DNA from: Nitriliruptoraceae bacterium
GTDB lineage: Bacteria > Actinomycetota > Nitriliruptoria > Nitriliruptorales > Nitriliruptoraceae
Assembly (NCBI GenBank): GCA_003565155.1
Contig: PXDB01000043.1
Location: 1 to 64,000 of the forward strand
DNA: 64,000 bases
Reading direction: 5' to 3'
Shown: piece by piece, positions 13,019 through 52,730 of the stretch
Layout: every line of letters starts with the position of its first letter
Numbering within the stretch: position 1 is the stretch's first letter
Translations under genes and position numbers: made by a program
The notes under the pieces: generated by a model
The model's input: the letters and a program-made list of their open reading frames with translations, nothing else
Database searches by the model: none
What the model was told of the DNA's origin: nothing

Positions 13019-15448
13019 TCACAGCAGCTTGGCGATGAGCTGGCGCATGATCTCGTCGGTGCCGCCGCCGATCGGGCCCAACCGGGCGTCCCGCCAGGCG
13101 CGCTGGATCGGGTACTCCAGCATGTAGCCGGCGCCGCCGTGGATCTGCACGCCCTCGTCGGCGACCTCGAACGCCAGCCGCTGGGTCACCAGCTTGGCCA
13201 TCGCCGCGGTCCGCACGATCGCGCTGCCATCCACCTCCTCGCCCTGCTCCTGGGCGACGAGCAACCGTAGGCCCTGGTAGGTGAGGGAGCGTGCCGCCTC
13301 GATGCGGGTGGCGAGGTCCGCGAAGCGGTGACGCCACACCTGGAAGGTGCCGATCGGCCGGCCGAACGCCTCCCGGTCGCGGCCGTAGGTCATCGCCAGC
13401 TCCAGGGTGCGTTCCGCCGCGGCCACGGCACCGAGCGCGAGCACGAGCCGCTCCCACGCGAACGCCGAGGTGATGTGCCCGAAGCCGGTGCCGATCCCGC
13501 CGAGGCGGCGGTCGTCACCGACCCGGACGCCGTCGAAGGCCAGCTCACCGGTGTGCGAGGCCCACCAGCCGAGCATCCGTAGCCGTCTGCGGGACAGGCC
13601 GGCGGCGTCGCCGTCGACGACGAACAGCGTCAACTGCGCGTGGGGGGCCTGCCCCGGCGCCCCGTCCTCCGGCGCGACCTTCGCGGCGACGACGAGGTGG
13701 TCCGCCCACGGCCCGTTCGTGATGAACACCTTCTCACCGTCGATCCGCCACCCGTCACCGTCCGGGCGTGCCCGCGTGCTGATGCCGGCGACATCGCTGC
13801 CGGCCCCGGGCTCGGTGATGGCCAGCGCACCGATGCGTTCGCCGGAGACCAGGCCGGGCAGGAACCGCCGGCGTTGCGCATCGGTGCCGGCGGACTGGAT
13901 GTAGGTGCCGGCCAGGTCGGTGCTGGCGCCGAGGTCGGCGGCCAACCCGCCGCTGAGCGCGCGCGCCAACTCCTCGACCCACACGGCCTGCGCCCGCACG
14001 TCCGGACCGGAGCCGCCGACGTCGGCCGGGAAGCGCAGGCCGAGGAACCCGGCGGCGCCGACCTCGCGGAACAGCTCGCGAGGGAACTCGCCGGCGCGCT
14101 CCCACTCCTCCACGTTGGGGAGGATGCGGTCGGCGACGAAGGCCCGCGCGCTGGTCCGCAGCGCGTCGTGGTGCGCCTCGAACACCGGCAGCGCCGGGTC
14201 CGTCGCCGCGGTCGGGCTCGCCCGTCCGGGTGCGGCCACCTCGGCGGAGCGTTCGGTGGCAGCGGGTGGCGCCAGCCCACCGGCGGTTCCCCGCCGGGCG
14301 TCGAGGTGCTTGGCGATGATCTCGCGCTGGACCTCGTCGGCGCCACCACCGATCCGGTTGAGGCGGCTGTCCCGCCAGGCCCGGGCGATGCCGAACTCCT
14401 CCGCGTAGCCGTAGCCGCCGTGGAGCTGGAGCACCTCGTCGGCCACCTCGAAGCTGCAGCGCGCCGCGGCGAGCTTGCACATCGCGATGCGTTCGGTGGG
14501 GTAGTGGCCCCGGTTCCACGCGTCGCAGGTGTCGTACACCAGGGCGCGGACCGCGGCGATGCGGGTGGCCATGTCCGCCAGGCGGTGCTGGGTGACCTGG
14601 AAGCCGGCCAGGGGCCGCCCGAACGCCTGCCGGTCGCGGGTGTAGTCCACCGCCCGGTCGTAGAGCACCTGTGCCGAGGCCACGGAGCTGATCGCGGCGA
14701 TGAGCCGTTCGCCCTGGAGCTGCCACATGATCTGGCTGAACCCCCGGTGCAGCTCCCCGAGCAGCGCACCCGCCGGTACCCGGACACCGTCGAGGTGGAG
14801 GAGTGCGGTGTCGGAGGCCCGCATCCCCACCTTGTCGAGGGTGCCCGCCACCTCGAAGCCGTCGAGATCGGTGTCGACCAGGAACAGCGACAGCCCACCC
14901 CAGGGGTCCTCGGGCGTGGCATCGGCGGTCCGCACCACCATGGTCACGAAGTCGGCGCGGACCCCGTTGGTGATGTAGGTCTTCGCCCCGTCGATGACCC
15001 AGCCGTCACCGTCCCGACGGGCGCGGGTCCGCACCGCCCGCACGTCGGAGCCCGCGTCCGGTTCGCTGATGCCGATGGCGGCGACCTTCTCGCCGGCGAG
15101 CGCCGGGGCGAGGTAGTCGCGCCGCTGCTGTGCGGTGCCGAAGGCCAGGATGGGCGGTGTGGCCATGTCGGTCTGCACGGTGATGGCCATGGCCAGGGAC
15201 CCCGACCCCACCCGGGCCAGCTCCTCGGCGAGCACGACCGTCGACCAGTAGTCGCCTCCCTGCCCGCCCTCTTCCACCGGCACGGTGAGCCCGAGGAGTC
15301 CCTGCTCGCCGAAGCGTCGGAACACCTCGTCGTCCAACCACTCGTCGTCCTCCCAGCGCTGCACGTGGGGGGCGATCTGCTCGTCGAGGAACCGGCGCAC
15401 CGTGCGACGGAGGTGGTCGTGCTCCTCGGTGAAGGGGTCTGTTCGCAC
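13019..15448 (-). CDS. Tandem-fused acyl-CoA dehydrogenase (two ACAD units in one polypeptide)
   Basis: Two successive ACAD units: DEQIAPHVQRWE...ISEPDAGSDVRAVRT...LQGERLIAAISSV...GGGADEVQREIIAKHL, then ADRILPNVEEWE...ITEPGAGSDVAGISTRA...FAWERLVLALGAV...GGGTDEIMRQLIAKLL. Confidence 0.92.
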   Translation of the reverse strand: MRTDPFTEEHDHLRRTVRRFLDEQIAPHVQRWEDDEWLDDEVFRRFGEQGLLGLTVPVEEGGQGGDYWSTVVLAEELARVGSGSLAMAITVQTDMATPPILAFGTAQQRRDYLAPALAGEKVAAIGISEPDAGSDVRAVRTRARRDGDGWVIDGAKTYITNGVRADFVTMVVRTADATPEDPWGGLSLFLVDTDLDGFEVAGTLDKVGMRASDTALLHLDGVRVPAGALLGELHRGFSQIMWQLQGERLIAAISSVASAQVLYDRAVDYTRDRQAFGRPLAGFQVTQHRLADMATRIAAVRALVYDTCDAWNRGHYPTERIAMCKLAAARCSFEVADEVLQLHGGYGYAEEFGIARAWRDSRLNRIGGGADEVQREIIAKHLDARRGTAGGLAPPAATERSAEVAAPGRASPTAATDPALPVFEAHHDALRTSARAFVADRILPNVEEWERAGEFPRELFREVGAAGFLGLRFPADVGGSGPDVRAQAVWVEELARALSGGLAADLGASTDLAGTYIQSAGTDAQRRRFLPGLVSGERIGALAITEPGAGSDVAGISTRARPDGDGWRIDGEKVFITNGPWADHLVVAAKVAPEDGAPGQAPHAQLTLFVVDGDAAGLSRRRLRMLGWWASHTGELAFDGVRVGDDRRLGGIGTGFGHITSAFAWERLVLALGAVAAAERTLELAMTYGRDREAFGRPIGTFQVWRHRFADLATRIEAARSLTYQGLRLLVAQEQGEEVDGSAIVRTAAMAKLVTQRLAFEVADEGVQIHGGAGYMLEYPIQRAWRDARLGPIGGGTDEIMRQLIAKLL

Positions 15449-15564
15449 CGCGTCGGCCTCCCGGTGTCGACGGTGGCCTCCAGCAGCCTCCCGCGCCGAA
15501 CGCAGAACGATACTGACGCATCCGTTCCGGGCCGCCATCGCCGGCCACGGGCTGCGCGCGTCCG

Positions 15565-24292: not shown

Positions 24293-26179
24293 TCAGAAGG
24301 CCTCGGCGGCGACCTCCATCAGGGCGCCGTCCTCCTCGGCGGCGACCTGCGCGCGCAGGCCCACCTTCGGCAGGACGGAACGCGAGAAGTGGCGTGCCGC
24401 GGCGATCTTGCCGGTGTAGAAGGCGGTGTCCTTGTCGCCGGCGATCCCGGCCTCCAGCGCGTCATGGGCGACCTCTGCCTGGCGCAGCAGCAGCCAGCCG
24501 ATCATCACCTCGGCCAGCGAGGCGAGGAACGCCGTGGACTGCAGCCCGGTCTTGTAGATCTCCTGGCGCTTCGACTCGTCCATCGAGGCCATGGCGTGCT
24601 GGAGCAGCACCCCGAGGTGGGACTGCGCCGCATCGAGCGCCGTGCCGAGCCGCTCCCGCTCGTCCGCGATGGGATCGCCGTCCACCCCGGCCTTGAGGAA
24701 GGTCCGGATCTGGTCGGCGAACCAGGTCAGGGTCGCGCCCTGGTCCCGGACGATCTTGCGGAACAGCAGGTCCAGGGCCTGGATCGCCGTCGTGCCCTCG
24801 TAGAGGGTGTCGATCTTGGCGTCGCGGATGTACTGCTCGATGGGGTAGTCCTGGGTGTAGCCGGAGCCACCGAAGGTCTGGAGGCTGTGGGAGCCGAGCA
24901 GCTCGTAGGCCTTCTCCGAGCAGTAGCCCTTGACCAGGGGCAGCAGCAGGTCCTCGCGGGCGATCCAGCGGTCGTGCTCGTCGTGGTCCTCCCCACCCAG
25001 GGTGTCGGGGTGGGCGGCGAGCTGGGCCTGGTCCTGGACCCAGCCGGCGTACATCACCAGGGCGCGCATGCCCTCGGCGTGGGCCTTCTGGTCCATCAGC
25101 ATCCGGCGCACGTCCGGGTGGTTGATGATCGCCACCTTGGACGCGGTCTTGTCGGTCATCTGGGTCATGTCCGGGCCCTGGACCCGCAGCTTCGCGTACT
25201 CCAGGGCGTTGAGGTAGCCCGTGGACAGCGTGGCCATCGCCTTGGTGCCCACCATCATCCGGGCGTACTCGATCACCAGGAACATCTGCTTGATGCCCTC
25301 GTGGACGTTGCCGGCGAGGTAGCCGACGCAGGGCTCGCCGTCCTGGCCGAGGGAGAGCTCGCAGGTCGCCGAGCCCTTGATCCCCATCTTCTTCTCGAGG
25401 TTGGAGACCCGCACCCCGTTGCGCTCGCCGATCGTGCCGTCGGCGTCCACGTGCCGCTTGGGCACCAGGAACAGGCTGAGGCCCTTGGTGCCGGGCGCCG
25501 CGCCCTCCGGGCGGGCCAGCACCAGATGGAGGGTGTTGGGGTGGGTCTGGGCGTCCGCGGAGGTGATGAACCGCTTGATGCCCTCGAGGTGGTAGACGTC
25601 ACCGAGGTCGTCGTCACCCGCCGCCTCGACGAAGGTGGCCTTGGTGACCCCGGCACCGACGTCGGAGCCCGCGTCGGGCTCGGTGAGCACCATGGTGCCG
25701 CCCCACCGGTCCTCGACCAGGGGACGGCCGAAGGTCGCCTTCTGGCCCTCGGTCCCGATCTGGTCGACGATGGAGGCCATCAGCGCACCGATGGGCCACA
25801 GGCTGGCGGTGGCGTGCCCGCCGGCCAGCAGCTCCGTGCCCGCCCACCGGATCGTGGGCGGTGCCCCGAACCCGCCGAGGTGGGTGGGCAGCGGCATCAG
25901 GTGCCAGCCGGCGTCGTAGAAGGCCTCCAGGGCCCGGTTGAGCTCCTCCGGGACGGTGACGTCGCCCTCGGGCGAGAGTCCGAGCGGCTCACGGTCGGTG
26001 GCGACGAAGGAGTCGGCCCACACGGACTCGCGGCTGAAGCGCTCGAGTTCGCTGAGCAGCATCCGTGCCTGCTCGCCGTCAACGGCCTCGAAGGGGCCGG
26101 TCCCGAAGTAGGTGTCGGCACCGAGCACCTCGAAGAGGTTGAACTCGATGTCGCGGAGGTTGCTCTTGAAGTGGCTCAT
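24293..26179 (-). CDS. Acyl-CoA dehydrogenase with extended C-terminal domain (~630 aa)
   Basis: MSHFKSNLRDIEFNLFEVLG, MVLTEPDAGSDVG, LEGIKRFITSADAQT, SGYTQDYPIEQYIRDAKIDTLYEGTTAIQALDLL. Confidence 0.93.
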   Translation of the reverse strand: MSHFKSNLRDIEFNLFEVLGADTYFGTGPFEAVDGEQARMLLSELERFSRESVWADSFVATDREPLGLSPEGDVTVPEELNRALEAFYDAGWHLMPLPTHLGGFGAPPTIRWAGTELLAGGHATASLWPIGALMASIVDQIGTEGQKATFGRPLVEDRWGGTMVLTEPDAGSDVGAGVTKATFVEAAGDDDLGDVYHLEGIKRFITSADAQTHPNTLHLVLARPEGAAPGTKGLSLFLVPKRHVDADGTIGERNGVRVSNLEKKMGIKGSATCELSLGQDGEPCVGYLAGNVHEGIKQMFLVIEYARMMVGTKAMATLSTGYLNALEYAKLRVQGPDMTQMTDKTASKVAIINHPDVRRMLMDQKAHAEGMRALVMYAGWVQDQAQLAAHPDTLGGEDHDEHDRWIAREDLLLPLVKGYCSEKAYELLGSHSLQTFGGSGYTQDYPIEQYIRDAKIDTLYEGTTAIQALDLLFRKIVRDQGATLTWFADQIRTFLKAGVDGDPIADERERLGTALDAAQSHLGVLLQHAMASMDESKRQEIYKTGLQSTAFLASLAEVMIGWLLLRQAEVAHDALEAGIAGDKDTAFYTGKIAAARHFSRSVLPKVGLRAQVAAEEDGALMEVAAEAF

Positions 26180-26315
26180 CGCGTCTCCCTCGATCTGCCG
26201 CACGGCTCCCGCTGGGTGGGGGCTCCCTCCACACCGTCCACGGCACCCCGATCGGCGGCTCCTTGCGGGCGAGCCCGTGGGGGCCCGTTGCGGGAACGCC
26301 GAACCTGGAGTGGAT

Positions 26316-35306: not shown

Positions 35307-35443
35307 CGCGGTGCGAAGCCGTCCTGCGGCGGCGTCCCTGCCGCCGCACCCGCCAGCTTGGTCGGTCCTGTGCCGGCCTGGCAGTCTTGTCGCAGCCGTC
35401 GGGCGGGCCCGCCGACCTGCCGGCCCCGGGAGGACGCACCGTC

Positions 35444-37105
35444 ATGACCGAGCTCACCCACGCCGCTGACCTCAACGCCGCCGTGGAGGGCTGCCTGCAG
35501 GTGGTCACCCGCCACCTCGCCGACGCCTGCACCGTGGACGGTCGGATCGACGGCGGCCGCCTCGACGACCAGCAGGCGGCCGCCTACGACCTCGCGTCGG
35601 TCTCCTCCGGCCTGGCCGCCGCCAAGGCCCTGGCGGAGCTGGCCACACCCGGTGACCTGCAGGCCCGCCTCGCCCTGGTGGCGGCCGCCGATGTGGCGGC
35701 GGACCTGCTCAGCCGCACGGCCGGCCGGGAGGCCGCCTTCGGGCTGCCGCGTGATCCGCTCGCCGAGGTGGCCGACGCGCTGGCGGCGGGCCGCGAGGCC
35801 GGGCTGCTCGGCGCCGTGGGTGACGAGGTGCTGGCCACCGGCGAGGCCGGCTCCCGCCACCTCGACGAGGACCTCGAGATGGTCCGCCAGACCTTCCGTC
35901 GCTACGCCGAGGACAAGGTCGCCCCGGTCGCGGAGCACGTCCACCGCGCCGACGAGGACATCCCCGAGCCGATCATCTCCGGTCTGGCCGAGCTCGGCTG
36001 CTTCGCCCTGTCGATCCCCGAGGAGCATGGCGGGTTCGCCACCGGCGGTGAGGACGAGCTGCTCAACATGGTGCTGGTCACCGAGGAGCTCTCCCGCGGC
36101 TCCCTCGGCGTGGCGGGGTCCCTGATCACCCGACCGGAGATCATCGGCACCGCGATCCTCAAGGGCGGCACCGACGCCCAGAAGGCCCGGTGGCTGCCCG
36201 CGATCGCCGCGGGTGAGAAGATGTGCGCCGTGGCCGTGACCGAGCCGGACTACGGCTCCGACGTGGCGGGGGTCAAGACCACGGCCCGTCGGGACGGGGA
36301 CGGGTGGGTCCTCGACGGGGTCAAGACCTGGTGCACCTTCGCCGGCCGCGCGGAGTACCTGCTGGTGCTGGCCCGCACCGACCCCGACCGTTCGCTGGGG
36401 CACAAGGGCCTGAGCCTGTTCGTGGTGGAGAAGCCCGCCGCCAGCGGCCACGAGTTCGCCTTCGCGCAGGGGCCCGACGGTGCGGTCGGCGGCACCGGGG
36501 GCGGCCGCATGGAGGCCCGCGCGATCCCCACGATCGGCTACCGCGGCATGCACTCCTTCGAGGTGTCCCTCGACGGCTGGCGGGTCCCCGCTGACGCCCT
36601 GATCGGCGAACAGGACGGGCTCGGCCGGGGCTTCTACCTTCAGATGCAGGCCTTCGCCAACGCCCGACTGCAGACCGCCGCCCGTGCCCAGGGGGTGATG
36701 CAGGCTGCCCTGGAGCGGGCCGCGACCTACAGCCGCGAGCGCAAGGTGTTCGACCAGCCGATCGCCGGTTTCGAGCTGACCCGGGTGCGCATGGCCCGGA
36801 TGGCGGCGACCCTGGCGGCCTGCCGGGCGCTGTCGGTGCAGGTCGCGCGCGACATCGCCCGCGGCTCCAGCGAGGCGGCCCTGACCGCCAGCCAGGTCAA
36901 GCAGTACGCCTGCCGCAGCGCCGAGTGGGTCACCCGCGAGGCGCAGCAGCTGCACGGTGGCTACGGCTACGCCGAGGAGTACGAGGTGAGCCGTCTGTTC
37001 GTCGACGCCCGCGTGCTGTCGATCTTCGAGGGCACCGACGAGGTGCTGGCCCTGAAGGTGATCGCCCGGGGCCTGCTGGCGCGGGAGCTCGTCCCCGCGG
37101 GCTGA
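35444..37105 (+). CDS. Acyl-CoA dehydrogenase, (2S)-methylsuccinyl-CoA dehydrogenase-like
   Basis: N-terminal ~150 aa helical extension, then TEPDYGSDVAGVKTTA, GVKTWCTFAGRAEYL, GYRGMHSFEVSLDGWRVP, SIFEGTDEVLALKVIARGL. Confidence 0.75.
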   Translation: MTELTHAADLNAAVEGCLQVVTRHLADACTVDGRIDGGRLDDQQAAAYDLASVSSGLAAAKALAELATPGDLQARLALVAAADVAADLLSRTAGREAAFGLPRDPLAEVADALAAGREAGLLGAVGDEVLATGEAGSRHLDEDLEMVRQTFRRYAEDKVAPVAEHVHRADEDIPEPIISGLAELGCFALSIPEEHGGFATGGEDELLNMVLVTEELSRGSLGVAGSLITRPEIIGTAILKGGTDAQKARWLPAIAAGEKMCAVAVTEPDYGSDVAGVKTTARRDGDGWVLDGVKTWCTFAGRAEYLLVLARTDPDRSLGHKGLSLFVVEKPAASGHEFAFAQGPDGAVGGTGGGRMEARAIPTIGYRGMHSFEVSLDGWRVPADALIGEQDGLGRGFYLQMQAFANARLQTAARAQGVMQAALERAATYSRERKVFDQPIAGFELTRVRMARMAATLAACRALSVQVARDIARGSSEAALTASQVKQYACRSAEWVTREAQQLHGGYGYAEEYEVSRLFVDARVLSIFEGTDEVLALKVIARGLLARELVPAG

Positions 37106-49831: not shown

Positions 49832-50890
49832 GTGTCGACATCACCCACCACGCCGCCCGACAGCCCCGCGGGCCTCGACCTGGCAGCGGTCACCCCGTGG
49901 CTGGCCGCCCACGCCGACCTGTCGCCCCCCGTGACCGCCACGACGGTCGCGGGAGGCCGATCGAACCTCACCTACATCGTCACCGACGCCGCCGGGCGGC
50001 GCGTGGTCGTGCGACGCCCGCCGTTGCACGGCGTGCTGCAGTCCGCCCACGATGTCGCCCGTGAGCACCGGATCCTCACCGCACTCGCGCACTCGGACGT
50101 GCCGGTGCCGCGGTGTCTGGGGCTCGAGGAGGACGAGGCGCTGCTCGGTGCGCCCTTCTACGCCATGGAGTACGTGGAGGGGGTGGTCGCCCGGGACGCC
50201 GAGACCGCCAGGTCGGCGCTGAGCGGTGCCGCGCGTGCGGCCAGTGGACCGGCGCTGATCGACGTGCTGGTCCGCCTGCACCGGGTCGACGTGGACGCGG
50301 TCGGGCTCGGTGCGCTCGCGCGCCGCGAGGGCTACCTCGAACGGCAGTTGCGGCGGTGGCACGGCCAGCTGGAGCGGGCCAAGACCCGGGACCTGCCGGT
50401 CCTCGAGGAGGTCCACACCCGGCTGTCCGCGGACGTACCCGCCCAGGGCCCGGCGACGATCGTCCACGGGGACTACCGGTTGGACAACCTGCTGCTCGAC
50501 CCTGCAACCGGCGCGGTCCGTGCGGTGCTCGACTGGGAGCTGACCACCCTCGGGGACCCACTGGCCGATCTCGGGCTGCTCCTCGTCTACTGGGCGCAGC
50601 CCGATGATGCGACCCTGCCGCTGCCCGACGCACCGACCCTGGCGGAGGGTTTCGTGACCCGCGCGGAGCTGACGGAGCGCTACGCAGCGGCCTCAGGACG
50701 CGATGTCAGCGGGGTCGGCTACCACGTCGCCTTCGGCTACTGGAAGCTGGCCTGCATCCTCGAGGGGGTGCACAGCCGGTACGTGGCGGGCGCGTACGGG
50801 AAGGAGGCGGAGGGGTTCGCCGCGCTCGGCGACCTCGTCGTGGAGCTGGGGGAGCGCGCGTCGGACGCGGCAGCCGAGGTGGGACGGTGA
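49832..50890 (+). CDS. APH-type phosphotransferase family protein (ACAD10/11 kinase-domain-like)
   Basis: GGRSNLTYIVTDAAGRRVVVRRPP, IVHGDYRLDNLLLDP (Brenner motif HGDxxxxN), VLDWELTTLGDPLADLG. Confidence 0.93.
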   Translation: MSTSPTTPPDSPAGLDLAAVTPWLAAHADLSPPVTATTVAGGRSNLTYIVTDAAGRRVVVRRPPLHGVLQSAHDVAREHRILTALAHSDVPVPRCLGLEEDEALLGAPFYAMEYVEGVVARDAETARSALSGAARAASGPALIDVLVRLHRVDVDAVGLGALARREGYLERQLRRWHGQLERAKTRDLPVLEEVHTRLSADVPAQGPATIVHGDYRLDNLLLDPATGAVRAVLDWELTTLGDPLADLGLLLVYWAQPDDATLPLPDAPTLAEGFVTRAELTERYAAASGRDVSGVGYHVAFGYWKLACILEGVHSRYVAGAYGKEAEGFAALGDLVVELGERASDAAAEVGR

Positions 50891-51585
50891 GCGCCGCCGC
50901 GAGCGAGCATCCCGGCGCCGACCGGGCGCTGTTGATGGACTACGGCGGGGTGCTGACCCGTCCGGTCAAGGACTCCTTCGCCCGTTTCGAGGCGGCCCTG
51001 GGCATCGCGCCAGGCGACAGCTACGCGACGTTGCGTGCTGCCGGGCAGAGCGAGGACGGCGGGATGATCGGCGCCCTGGAACGGGGTGAGGTGTCGGTCG
51101 AGGCGTTCGACGCGCACCTGCGCGGGCTGCTCCGCCAAGCCGGCTACGACGTCGGGGAGGGCACCGGCCTGCTGGAGGGACTGTTCGCGGCGATGCAGCC
51201 CGCAGGGCAACTGTGGGCCCTGGTGGAGGAGGTCCGCAGCCACGGGGTGCGGACCGGCCTGCTGTCGAACTCCTGGGGCCTGTCCGCCTACCCCTTCGCC
51301 CGGCTCCAGCGCAGCTTCGACACCCTGGTGCTGTCGGGTGAGGTGGGGCTCCGCAAGCCGGACCCCCGGATCTTCGCGCTGGCGCTGGAGCGGATCGGGC
51401 TCCCCGCCGATCGCTGCGTGTTCGTGGACGACCTGGCGCCCAACGTCGCCGCCGCGGAGGAGCTTGGCCTCACCGGCGTCCACCACCAGGGCGATGACGC
51501 TGCCACCCGTGCTGCCGTGCTGGAGGCCCTGGAGCTCGGCCCAGCAGCGGGGGGCGACGGTCGTCGAGTAGTGTCCGGCGCATGA
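50887..51585 (+). CDS. HAD family hydrolase (sEH N-domain/ACAD10-like)
   Basis: LLMDYGGVLTRP (motif I), GLLSNSW (motif II), GLRKPDPRIFALAL (motif III), FVDDLAPNVAAAEELG (motif IV). 4-nt overlap with the APH gene. Confidence 0.9.
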   Translation: MSAAASEHPGADRALLMDYGGVLTRPVKDSFARFEAALGIAPGDSYATLRAAGQSEDGGMIGALERGEVSVEAFDAHLRGLLRQAGYDVGEGTGLLEGLFAAMQPAGQLWALVEEVRSHGVRTGLLSNSWGLSAYPFARLQRSFDTLVLSGEVGLRKPDPRIFALALERIGLPADRCVFVDDLAPNVAAAEELGLTGVHHQGDDAATRAAVLEALELGPAAGGDGRRVVSGA

Positions 51586-52730
51586 CTTCCTCACACACAC
51601 CTGAAGAGCGACTCGCGCTGTACGTCGACCACGAGAACGTGGCGATCGGTGCCCGCGACATCGGCTACCGCTTCGACCCCCAGCCGCTCCTCGAGGCGCT
51701 GGTCGAGCGGGGGCGGCTGATCACCCGTCGCGCCTACGCCGACTGGAACCTGTTCCGGGACGACCGCCGCGGGATGGTCGACGCCAACATGGAACTGATC
51801 GAGATCCCGCAGCGCTCGGACTCGGTCCGCAAGAACGCCGCGGACATCCAGATGGCCGTGGACGCCATGGAACTGGCGCTGACCCGTGACTTCGTCTCCA
51901 CCTTCGTGATCGTGTCCGGGGACTCGGACTTCACCCCGCTGGTCAGCAAGCTCCGGGAGCTGAACAAGCGGGTCATCGGCGTCGGACTGAAGGGCTCGAC
52001 CTCCGCGATGCTGCCGCCGGCCTGCGATGAGTTCCTGTTCTACGACCGCCTGGAGGGCATCCCACGCCGGGAGACCCGCGGCGGTGGTCCCGCACAGGGC
52101 CGGCCCAAGAAGAAGCCGACGTCCCCGACGTCCTCGAAGCGCGGCGGGGGTGGGGGCAAGGGCGCAGCCGCCGCCCCGACGCCGGAGCCGACACCGGATC
52201 CCAAGAGCTCGTCGCAGAAGCAGGACCTCCGCAAGCTGGAGCGGCTCATCACCCGGACACTGGCGGGGATCCAGTCCTCCGCGGCCGGTGCGGTGCAGGC
52301 CTCCAACCTCAAGCGTGCGCTGCTGCGCAAGGACCCCACCTTCAACGAGGGCGACTTCGGCTTCCGCGGGTTCCGCGAACTGCTGCGCCACCTCGCCGAT
52401 GGTGGCGTGATCACCCTGACCGACGGGTCCGCGCCGGGGGACCCGGAGGTGGACTTCCCCTCCGCCCCGCGGGACGAGGACGGCGCCTTCCAGCTGCTGC
52501 GCGACACCGTCAAGGAGCTGATGGTGGAGCTCGGCGGCGACCCGCCGCTCTCCGGCCTGAAGGACCAGCTGCGCAAGCGTCAACCCGACTTCTCCGAGAA
52601 GGACCTCGGCTACTCCGGCTTCCTGCAGTTCTGCAAGGCGGCGGTCACCAAGGACATCGTCGAGATGGACTGGGAGGAGGAGGACGCCGAGTACTACCTC
52701 TACGTCGAGGAGGGTGACGGCAAGGCCTGA
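51582..52730 (+). CDS. NYN-domain (PIN-like nuclease) protein with two C-terminal OST-HTH/LOTUS-like domains
   Basis: ALYVDHENVAIGARDIGYRFDP, KNAADIQMAVDAMELALTRDFVSTFVIVSGDSDFTPLVSKLRELNKRVIGVG; repeats KRALLRKDPTFNEGDFGFRGFRELLRHLADGGVI and KDQLRKRQPDFSEKDLGYSGFLQFCKAA. Confidence 0.9.
   Translation: MTSSHTPEERLALYVDHENVAIGARDIGYRFDPQPLLEALVERGRLITRRAYADWNLFRDDRRGMVDANMELIEIPQRSDSVRKNAADIQMAVDAMELALTRDFVSTFVIVSGDSDFTPLVSKLRELNKRVIGVGLKGSTSAMLPPACDEFLFYDRLEGIPRRETRGGGPAQGRPKKKPTSPTSSKRGGGGGKGAAAAPTPEPTPDPKSSSQKQDLRKLERLITRTLAGIQSSAAGAVQASNLKRALLRKDPTFNEGDFGFRGFRELLRHLADGGVITLTDGSAPGDPEVDFPSAPRDEDGAFQLLRDTVKELMVELGGDPPLSGLKDQLRKRQPDFSEKDLGYSGFLQFCKAAVTKDIVEMDWEEEDAEYYLYVEEGDGKA

Follow-up and report, generated by a model that had tools for sequence, protein, structure and literature searches.

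Three co-directional genes in the stretch of DNA analysed here (the window, 64,000 nucleotides from a Nitriliruptoraceae bacterium) represent, in our judgement and with somewhat more confidence than doubt, two independent units lying side by side: a split N-terminal half of ACAD10, made of an APH kinase and a HAD protein, and a stand-alone NYN-LOTUS gene. This reading builds on what was observed directly, that is, on the kinase and HAD families, their conserved pairing, the loss of the second Asp in the HAD protein, an ACAD11-type gene in the same genome, a -10 element before the NYN gene and the occurrence of NYN elsewhere unlinked to the pair. The interest lies in the ACAD10-like kinase-HAD pair; the NYN half matters less.

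Organization of the locus

The window belongs to contig C31, which is 77.8 kb long; the genome amounts to 3.5 Mb and is 83% complete. A preliminary description of this DNA had reported three plus-strand genes overlapping by 4 nt at 50887-50890 and 51582-51585, the motifs HGDYRLDN in the APH protein and DYGG in the HAD protein, and a NYN domain accompanied by two LOTUS-like domains. All of this was borne out: the frames are open and the coordinates agree, both motifs are present (together with LDWE in the APH protein), and Pfam recovered both the NYN and the OST-HTH regions of the predicted nuclease. Moreover, GC3 was 0.89-0.92 for APH, HAD and NYN/LOTUS alike, which is the pattern expected of real genes in this genome. 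The features are as follows.

49832..50890, + strand: APH kinase, 352 aa, GTG start; Pfam PF01636 (2.8e-52); motifs HGDYRLDN and LDWELTTLGDPLADLG
50887..51585, + strand: HAD-IA protein, 232 aa, GTG start; Pfam HAD (6.9e-12); motif I DYGG
50887..50890, + strand: GTGA stop/start overlap of APH and HAD, 4 nt, at 24 of 25 family loci (counted as described below)
51569..51574, + strand: TAGTGT, predicted -10 element of a leaderless NYN promoter, 7 nt before the ATG and within the HAD 3' end
51582..51585, + strand: overlap of HAD and NYN, 4 nt
51582..52730, + strand: NYN/LOTUS protein, predicted stand-alone RNase, 382 aa, ATG start; Pfam NYN (4.4e-32) and two OST-HTH stretches (2.4e-9)
52200..52703, + strand: pair of OST-HTH/LOTUS repeats of winged-helix type, at roughly aa 207-291 and 299-374, from Pfam and the secondary structure of the model

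An anti-phage system was considered and rejected, PADLOC having given a weak LabA-like match for NYN and none for APH or HAD.

The APH kinase and its pairing with HAD

Judged by its sequence, the first protein is a small-molecule kinase with the APH fold and belongs to the LvaA/ACAD10-11 group of kinases. The PDB ranking was headed by 9o56 (1e-67, 232 bits), 3dxp (4e-51, 177 bits) and ACAD11 (8v3v; 1.7e-38, 136 bits), and the match to an aminoglycoside kinase was marginal (APH VIII, 5e-4, 22.6 bits), so that by these scores the protein stands nearer to the ACAD10/11 and LvaA-like kinases than to the aminoglycoside kinases. The entry 3dxp is annotated in the PDB as a putative acyl-CoA dehydrogenase, yet it is a kinase in length and sequence. 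The HGDxxxxN and DWE motifs expected of the ACAD10/11-LvaA kinase group are intact, and the catalytic residues H212, G213, D214, N219, D234, W235 and E236 were invariant among 17 aligned family sequences.

The pairing of this kinase with the HAD protein is a real unit. The exact 4-nt overlap was found at 24 of 25 Nitriliruptoraceae loci, a count that tests for a start codon exactly at that place, since the start taken was always the one closest to where the window would predict it. Beyond the family, APH followed by an adjacent and co-directional HAD gene was present in other Actinomycetota (G044, G060, G049, G061, G088, G066 and G095), and two of these, the phylum-level relatives G066 and G095, carry ACAD-APH-HAD strings (loci L222 and L223). 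The active site of the ACAD in both reads IYDGPSEVHR, with Asp where ordinary ACADs carry Glu, which is the ACAD10/11 signature; for the G095 ACAD, ACAD11 came second in the PDB ranking, and the HAD-linked kinase of this genome gave the same PDB ranking as the window APH. These strings, with an ACAD of the Asp type, are a fuller split-ACAD10 arrangement than that of the window.

The HAD protein

The second protein is a HAD-IA protein resembling TIGR02247 and the sEH N-terminal domain. TIGR02247 was its best NCBIfam model, with a score (90.2 bits) below the curated cut-off of 125.4, and relatives scored 94 and 98; the structural model (pLDDT 88.8) had the sEH N-terminal phosphatase and YihX as nearest folds. 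In an alignment of 14 sequences, D18, S127, K157, D181 and D182 were invariant and motifs II-IV were kept, and Asp was found in none of the 14 at position 20, the second Asp of motif I, which was Gly, Val or Ala instead. The DYGG motif, in which the first Asp of DxD is kept and the second lost, shows the pattern of an ACAD10-type HAD. The preliminary description had noted DYGG, without the usual second Asp. This is no local oddity: a D-x-G-G-type motif I turned out to be the rule in HAD relatives, APH-linked or not, and its use as the mark of a locally dead enzyme was dropped.

In a tree of bacterial HADs, both APH-linked and unlinked, the APH-linked proteins came together in a single clade (100/99), and most of the unlinked ones lay elsewhere. 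The HAD of L286 fell inside this clade, though no kinase was found alongside, and the remaining unlinked HADs fell outside. Genera g3 and g11 have no HAD beside the kinase, which indicates that the HAD is dispensable. In human ACAD10, the HAD has only the first Asp of DxD and negligible phosphatase activity on 4-phospho-hydroxyacyl-CoA, and the D48A mutation in this domain increases the kinase activity; the HAD seems to restrain the kinase (PMC11342911). The bacterial HAD is probably a regulatory partner of its kinase.

An active phosphatase working on the kinase product, as a futile-cycle brake or in proofreading, is an unlikely alternative to such a non-catalytic restraint, even if several features would suit it. 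The nucleophile Asp, the motif II Ser, the Lys and both Asp residues of motif IV never vary, and the fold is like those of the sEH phosphatase domain and YihX, an enzyme that is functional although its motif I likewise lacks the second Asp. Against a phosphatase, Asp at +2 occurs in no relative, Val or Ala replacing it in some, and the corresponding activity of the ACAD10 HAD is negligible (PMC11342911).

Candidate ACAD partners and the putative substrate of the kinase

The window is ACAD-rich, as had been pointed out, with ACADs at 13019-15538 and 24293-26203 and a match inside 35387-37105, and the pair had been proposed to act with one of them. Each was rejected as partner: the first is a tandem ACAD with GGGADEV/GGGTDEI instead of the Asp motif, the second is FadE5-like, and the third, read at its active-site segment only, shows IFEGTDEV (Glu). 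The Asp signature was absent from the window ACADs wherever it was readable, and ACAD11 was not among their best PDB matches (the third ACAD being judged by the active-site segment alone). An ACAD11-type ACAD with the catalytic Asp (ADGPDEVHE; ACAD11, 430 bits) does exist in the same genome, on another contig and unlinked to APH (C94:27207-28412), and it was the only such gene found. The other family members that were looked at also have genes with the Asp motif, and in G014, a genome of genus g11, APH lies directly behind an ACAD10/11-type gene. Of the preliminary description, therefore, the ACAD10-like character of the pair has held, given the PDB matches to ACAD11 and 3dxp, the recurrence across the phylum, the ACAD twice adjacent and the lost second Asp, and the idea of a partner among the window ACADs has not. 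With the ACAD11-type gene on C94 and APH-HAD here, the parts of an ACAD10-type pathway are present in the cell, not as a single cluster.

The 13019-15538 gene, a single ORF of 839 aa, contains two full ACAD units, one after the other. The congener G002 (L235) has a separate gene for each of the two ACADs, and behind them come another APH kinase, distinct from that of the pair, and an enoyl-CoA hydratase, an arrangement suggesting that the tandem ACAD of the window may belong to another kinase-linked pathway.

It is also conceivable, if rather improbable in our view, that the kinase has an ACAD10-like fold and acts on another acyl-CoA or a small metabolite with a hydroxyl group that has nothing to do with 4-hydroxy acids. 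In the family loci the APH gene adjoins KorAB and MFS genes with no ACADs alongside, and it is a different APH that accompanies ACADs and the hydratase in G002. In the APH tree, moreover, the family kinases form a clade separate from the ACAD-linked one, HAD-linked kinases of other lineages and those of the family being divided by HAD-less kinases; the HAD was thus either lost several times or joined to two lines of kinases, which may not share a substrate. Against this alternative, the window APH is the sole strong APH match in a genome that also has an ACAD11-type gene, and in G014 the APH follows immediately after such a gene.

We retain the split ACAD10 half, for which the following scheme may be put forward. 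The APH protein would phosphorylate the hydroxyl group of 4-hydroxyacyl-CoA or of a closely related compound. The HAD, its translation coupled to that of the kinase by the 4-nt overlap, would bind the kinase or the phosphorylated product and may restrain the kinase. The phospho-acyl-CoA would then be converted into enoyl-CoA by the ACAD10/11-type dehydrogenase encoded on another contig. In a more specific form, which we advance tentatively and at somewhat less than even confidence, the two genes would constitute a previously undescribed module of Actinomycetota, a 4-hydroxyacyl-CoA kinase plus a separate degenerate-HAD restraint subunit, that is the counterpart of the ACAD10 kinase and HAD and has become attached to two kinase lineages.

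The NYN/LOTUS gene

The third protein is, by its sequence, an ordinary member of a widespread actinobacterial family, with a putative RNase activity. The NYN residues D16, D88, D94, D114 and D116 were invariant in 36 actinobacterial orthologues, the NYN model matched 2qip and the MARF1 NYN domain, and the LOTUS repeats formed two winged-helix-like units in the model, with pLDDT mostly >85. A NYN (DUF88) domain above the Pfam cut-off with its acidic residues, followed by two C-terminal OST-HTH domains where members have one or two, is the make-up of the bacterial LK-nuclease and OST-HTH family, which was described in 2010 as lacking a conserved neighbourhood with other RNA-processing systems and was suggested to be a stand-alone RNA-degradation enzyme (PMC2848206).

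Leaderless genes of actinobacteria are marked by TANNNT some 10-12 nt ahead of the start codon (PMC3160421), and the NYN gene displays this element and no SD. Of 30 family orthologues, 29 have TANNNT ending 6-7 nt short of the NYN ATG, as compared with 0.96% when every ATG of these loci is counted, and at the same spacing it was absent from APH (0/27) and HAD (0/23) in the family loci. The family sequences are related, so that a binomial p-value overstates the effect, but NYN still stands out against the APH and HAD genes beside it. SD-like sequences preceded NYN in 2 of 30 cases and APH in 20 of 27. The element is present in the congener G002 too and, outside the family, at 20 of 33 NYN loci. 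In the exception, L090, TAGGGT is followed 6 nt downstream by an ATG that is out of frame with NYN, which makes the NYN start uncertain there. NYN thus very probably has its own leaderless promoter inside the HAD end, to judge from these motifs, and in the proposed scheme the predicted endoribonuclease, with its two RNA-binding LOTUS domains, would be translated from a leaderless mRNA starting there.

Linkage of NYN to the APH-HAD pair

Among the measured family loci with HAD next to APH, HAD and NYN overlapped in the window's species alone, the gaps in the remaining ones being 9-301 bp or 1.3-3.7 kb. In the congeners G001 and G004, a gene of MFS type (a label given by sequence character and position, with no Pfam search) lies on the opposite strand between HAD and NYN. 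Across the family such an opposite-strand, transporter-like gene occupies this place in L073, L074, L076, L082, L083, L090 and L053; it occurs in some genera and the two congeners and is absent from the window's species and G002, a patchy distribution that implies repeated gain or loss. Three g11 genomes, small ones of 1.1-1.7 Mb, have an APH gene without HAD that overlaps NYN by 14 nt (L094, L096 and L098); in their relative G014, an APH lies behind an ACAD10/11-type gene instead.

Outside the family, neither APH nor HAD was found in the fetched NYN flanks (same-class and same-phylum non-family loci, and 63 named loci of other actinobacterial lineages), and in 17 non-family genomes NYN was present and APH had no match. 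A conserved NYN neighbourhood across Actinomycetota was rejected as well: any one neighbour occurred at no more than 9 of the 63 named loci of other lineages, and a class-level set alone recurred. In other families of the same class (L033-L065), the NYN neighbours are, by eye, putative GlnD-like, P-II-like and fumarase-like genes, a different class-level synteny.

It is very unlikely that the three genes make up a single operon whose NYN-LOTUS nuclease controls mRNAs of 4-hydroxy-acid or acyl-CoA metabolism. In its favour are the 4-nt HAD-NYN overlap in the window's species and the closeness of NYN to APH: where family contigs reach far enough, NYN almost always lies downstream of APH at a distance of about 0-4 kb, and the two abut in genomes without HAD. 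This proximity is kept across about 30 genomes of one family, so that some link is conceivable, if improbable. The coupled operon was rejected in view of the conserved leaderless-type promoter of NYN, the opposite-strand MFS gene in congeners, and the lack of APH/HAD-NYN adjacency in the flanks fetched outside the family, where NYN also occurs in genomes that gave no APH match and, in same-class relatives, among other genes. The preliminary description had regarded NYN as coupled to the pair and a possible regulatory partner, and had named, among the results that would speak against this, adjacency confined to close relatives and a separate NYN promoter. The adjacency proved to be limited to one family, and the promoter is indicated in silico by the 29/30 count. 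The regulatory link is not supported.

Comparison with known systems

The NYN case illustrates how deceptive an overlap of 4 nt may be in GC-rich genomes of actinobacteria, in which the gene upstream may harbour a leaderless promoter. The gene itself matches the bacterial LK-nuclease (DUF88/NYN) and OST-HTH proteins, with no notable difference: NYN is N-terminal, two OST-HTH domains come after it, and a conserved neighbourhood is lacking, as stated for the bacterial family (PMC2848206); the leaderless-type promoter is conserved here. The HAD protein has TIGR02247 as its best NCBIfam model and the sEH N-terminal phosphatase as its best fold match but, unlike these, scores below the cut-off, is not fused to an epoxide hydrolase and lacks the second Asp. 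In bacteria, a close parallel for the kinase would be LvaA/LvaC of the Pseudomonas putida lva operon, an APH-type 4-hydroxyacyl-CoA kinase with an ACAD10/11-type ACAD, if the presumed substrate is right. No HAD homologue is encoded in that operon (PMC12440821); our kinase, by contrast, has a HAD beside it, and the ACAD gene lies apart from the pair. The animal HAD-kinase-ACAD fusion ACAD10 shares with our locus the kinase group, a HAD without the second Asp and an ACAD10/11-type ACAD in the genome, and its cleavage, by which the kinase and HAD are parted from the ACAD, resembles the separate genes found here (PMC11342911). It differs in that the bacterial genes are separate, in the order kinase then HAD, with the ACAD elsewhere in the genome, and with a putative substrate and restraint. 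Since the human ACAD10 HAD seems to restrain its kinase, the bacterial kinase and HAD, being separate proteins, make this mechanism testable by mixing.
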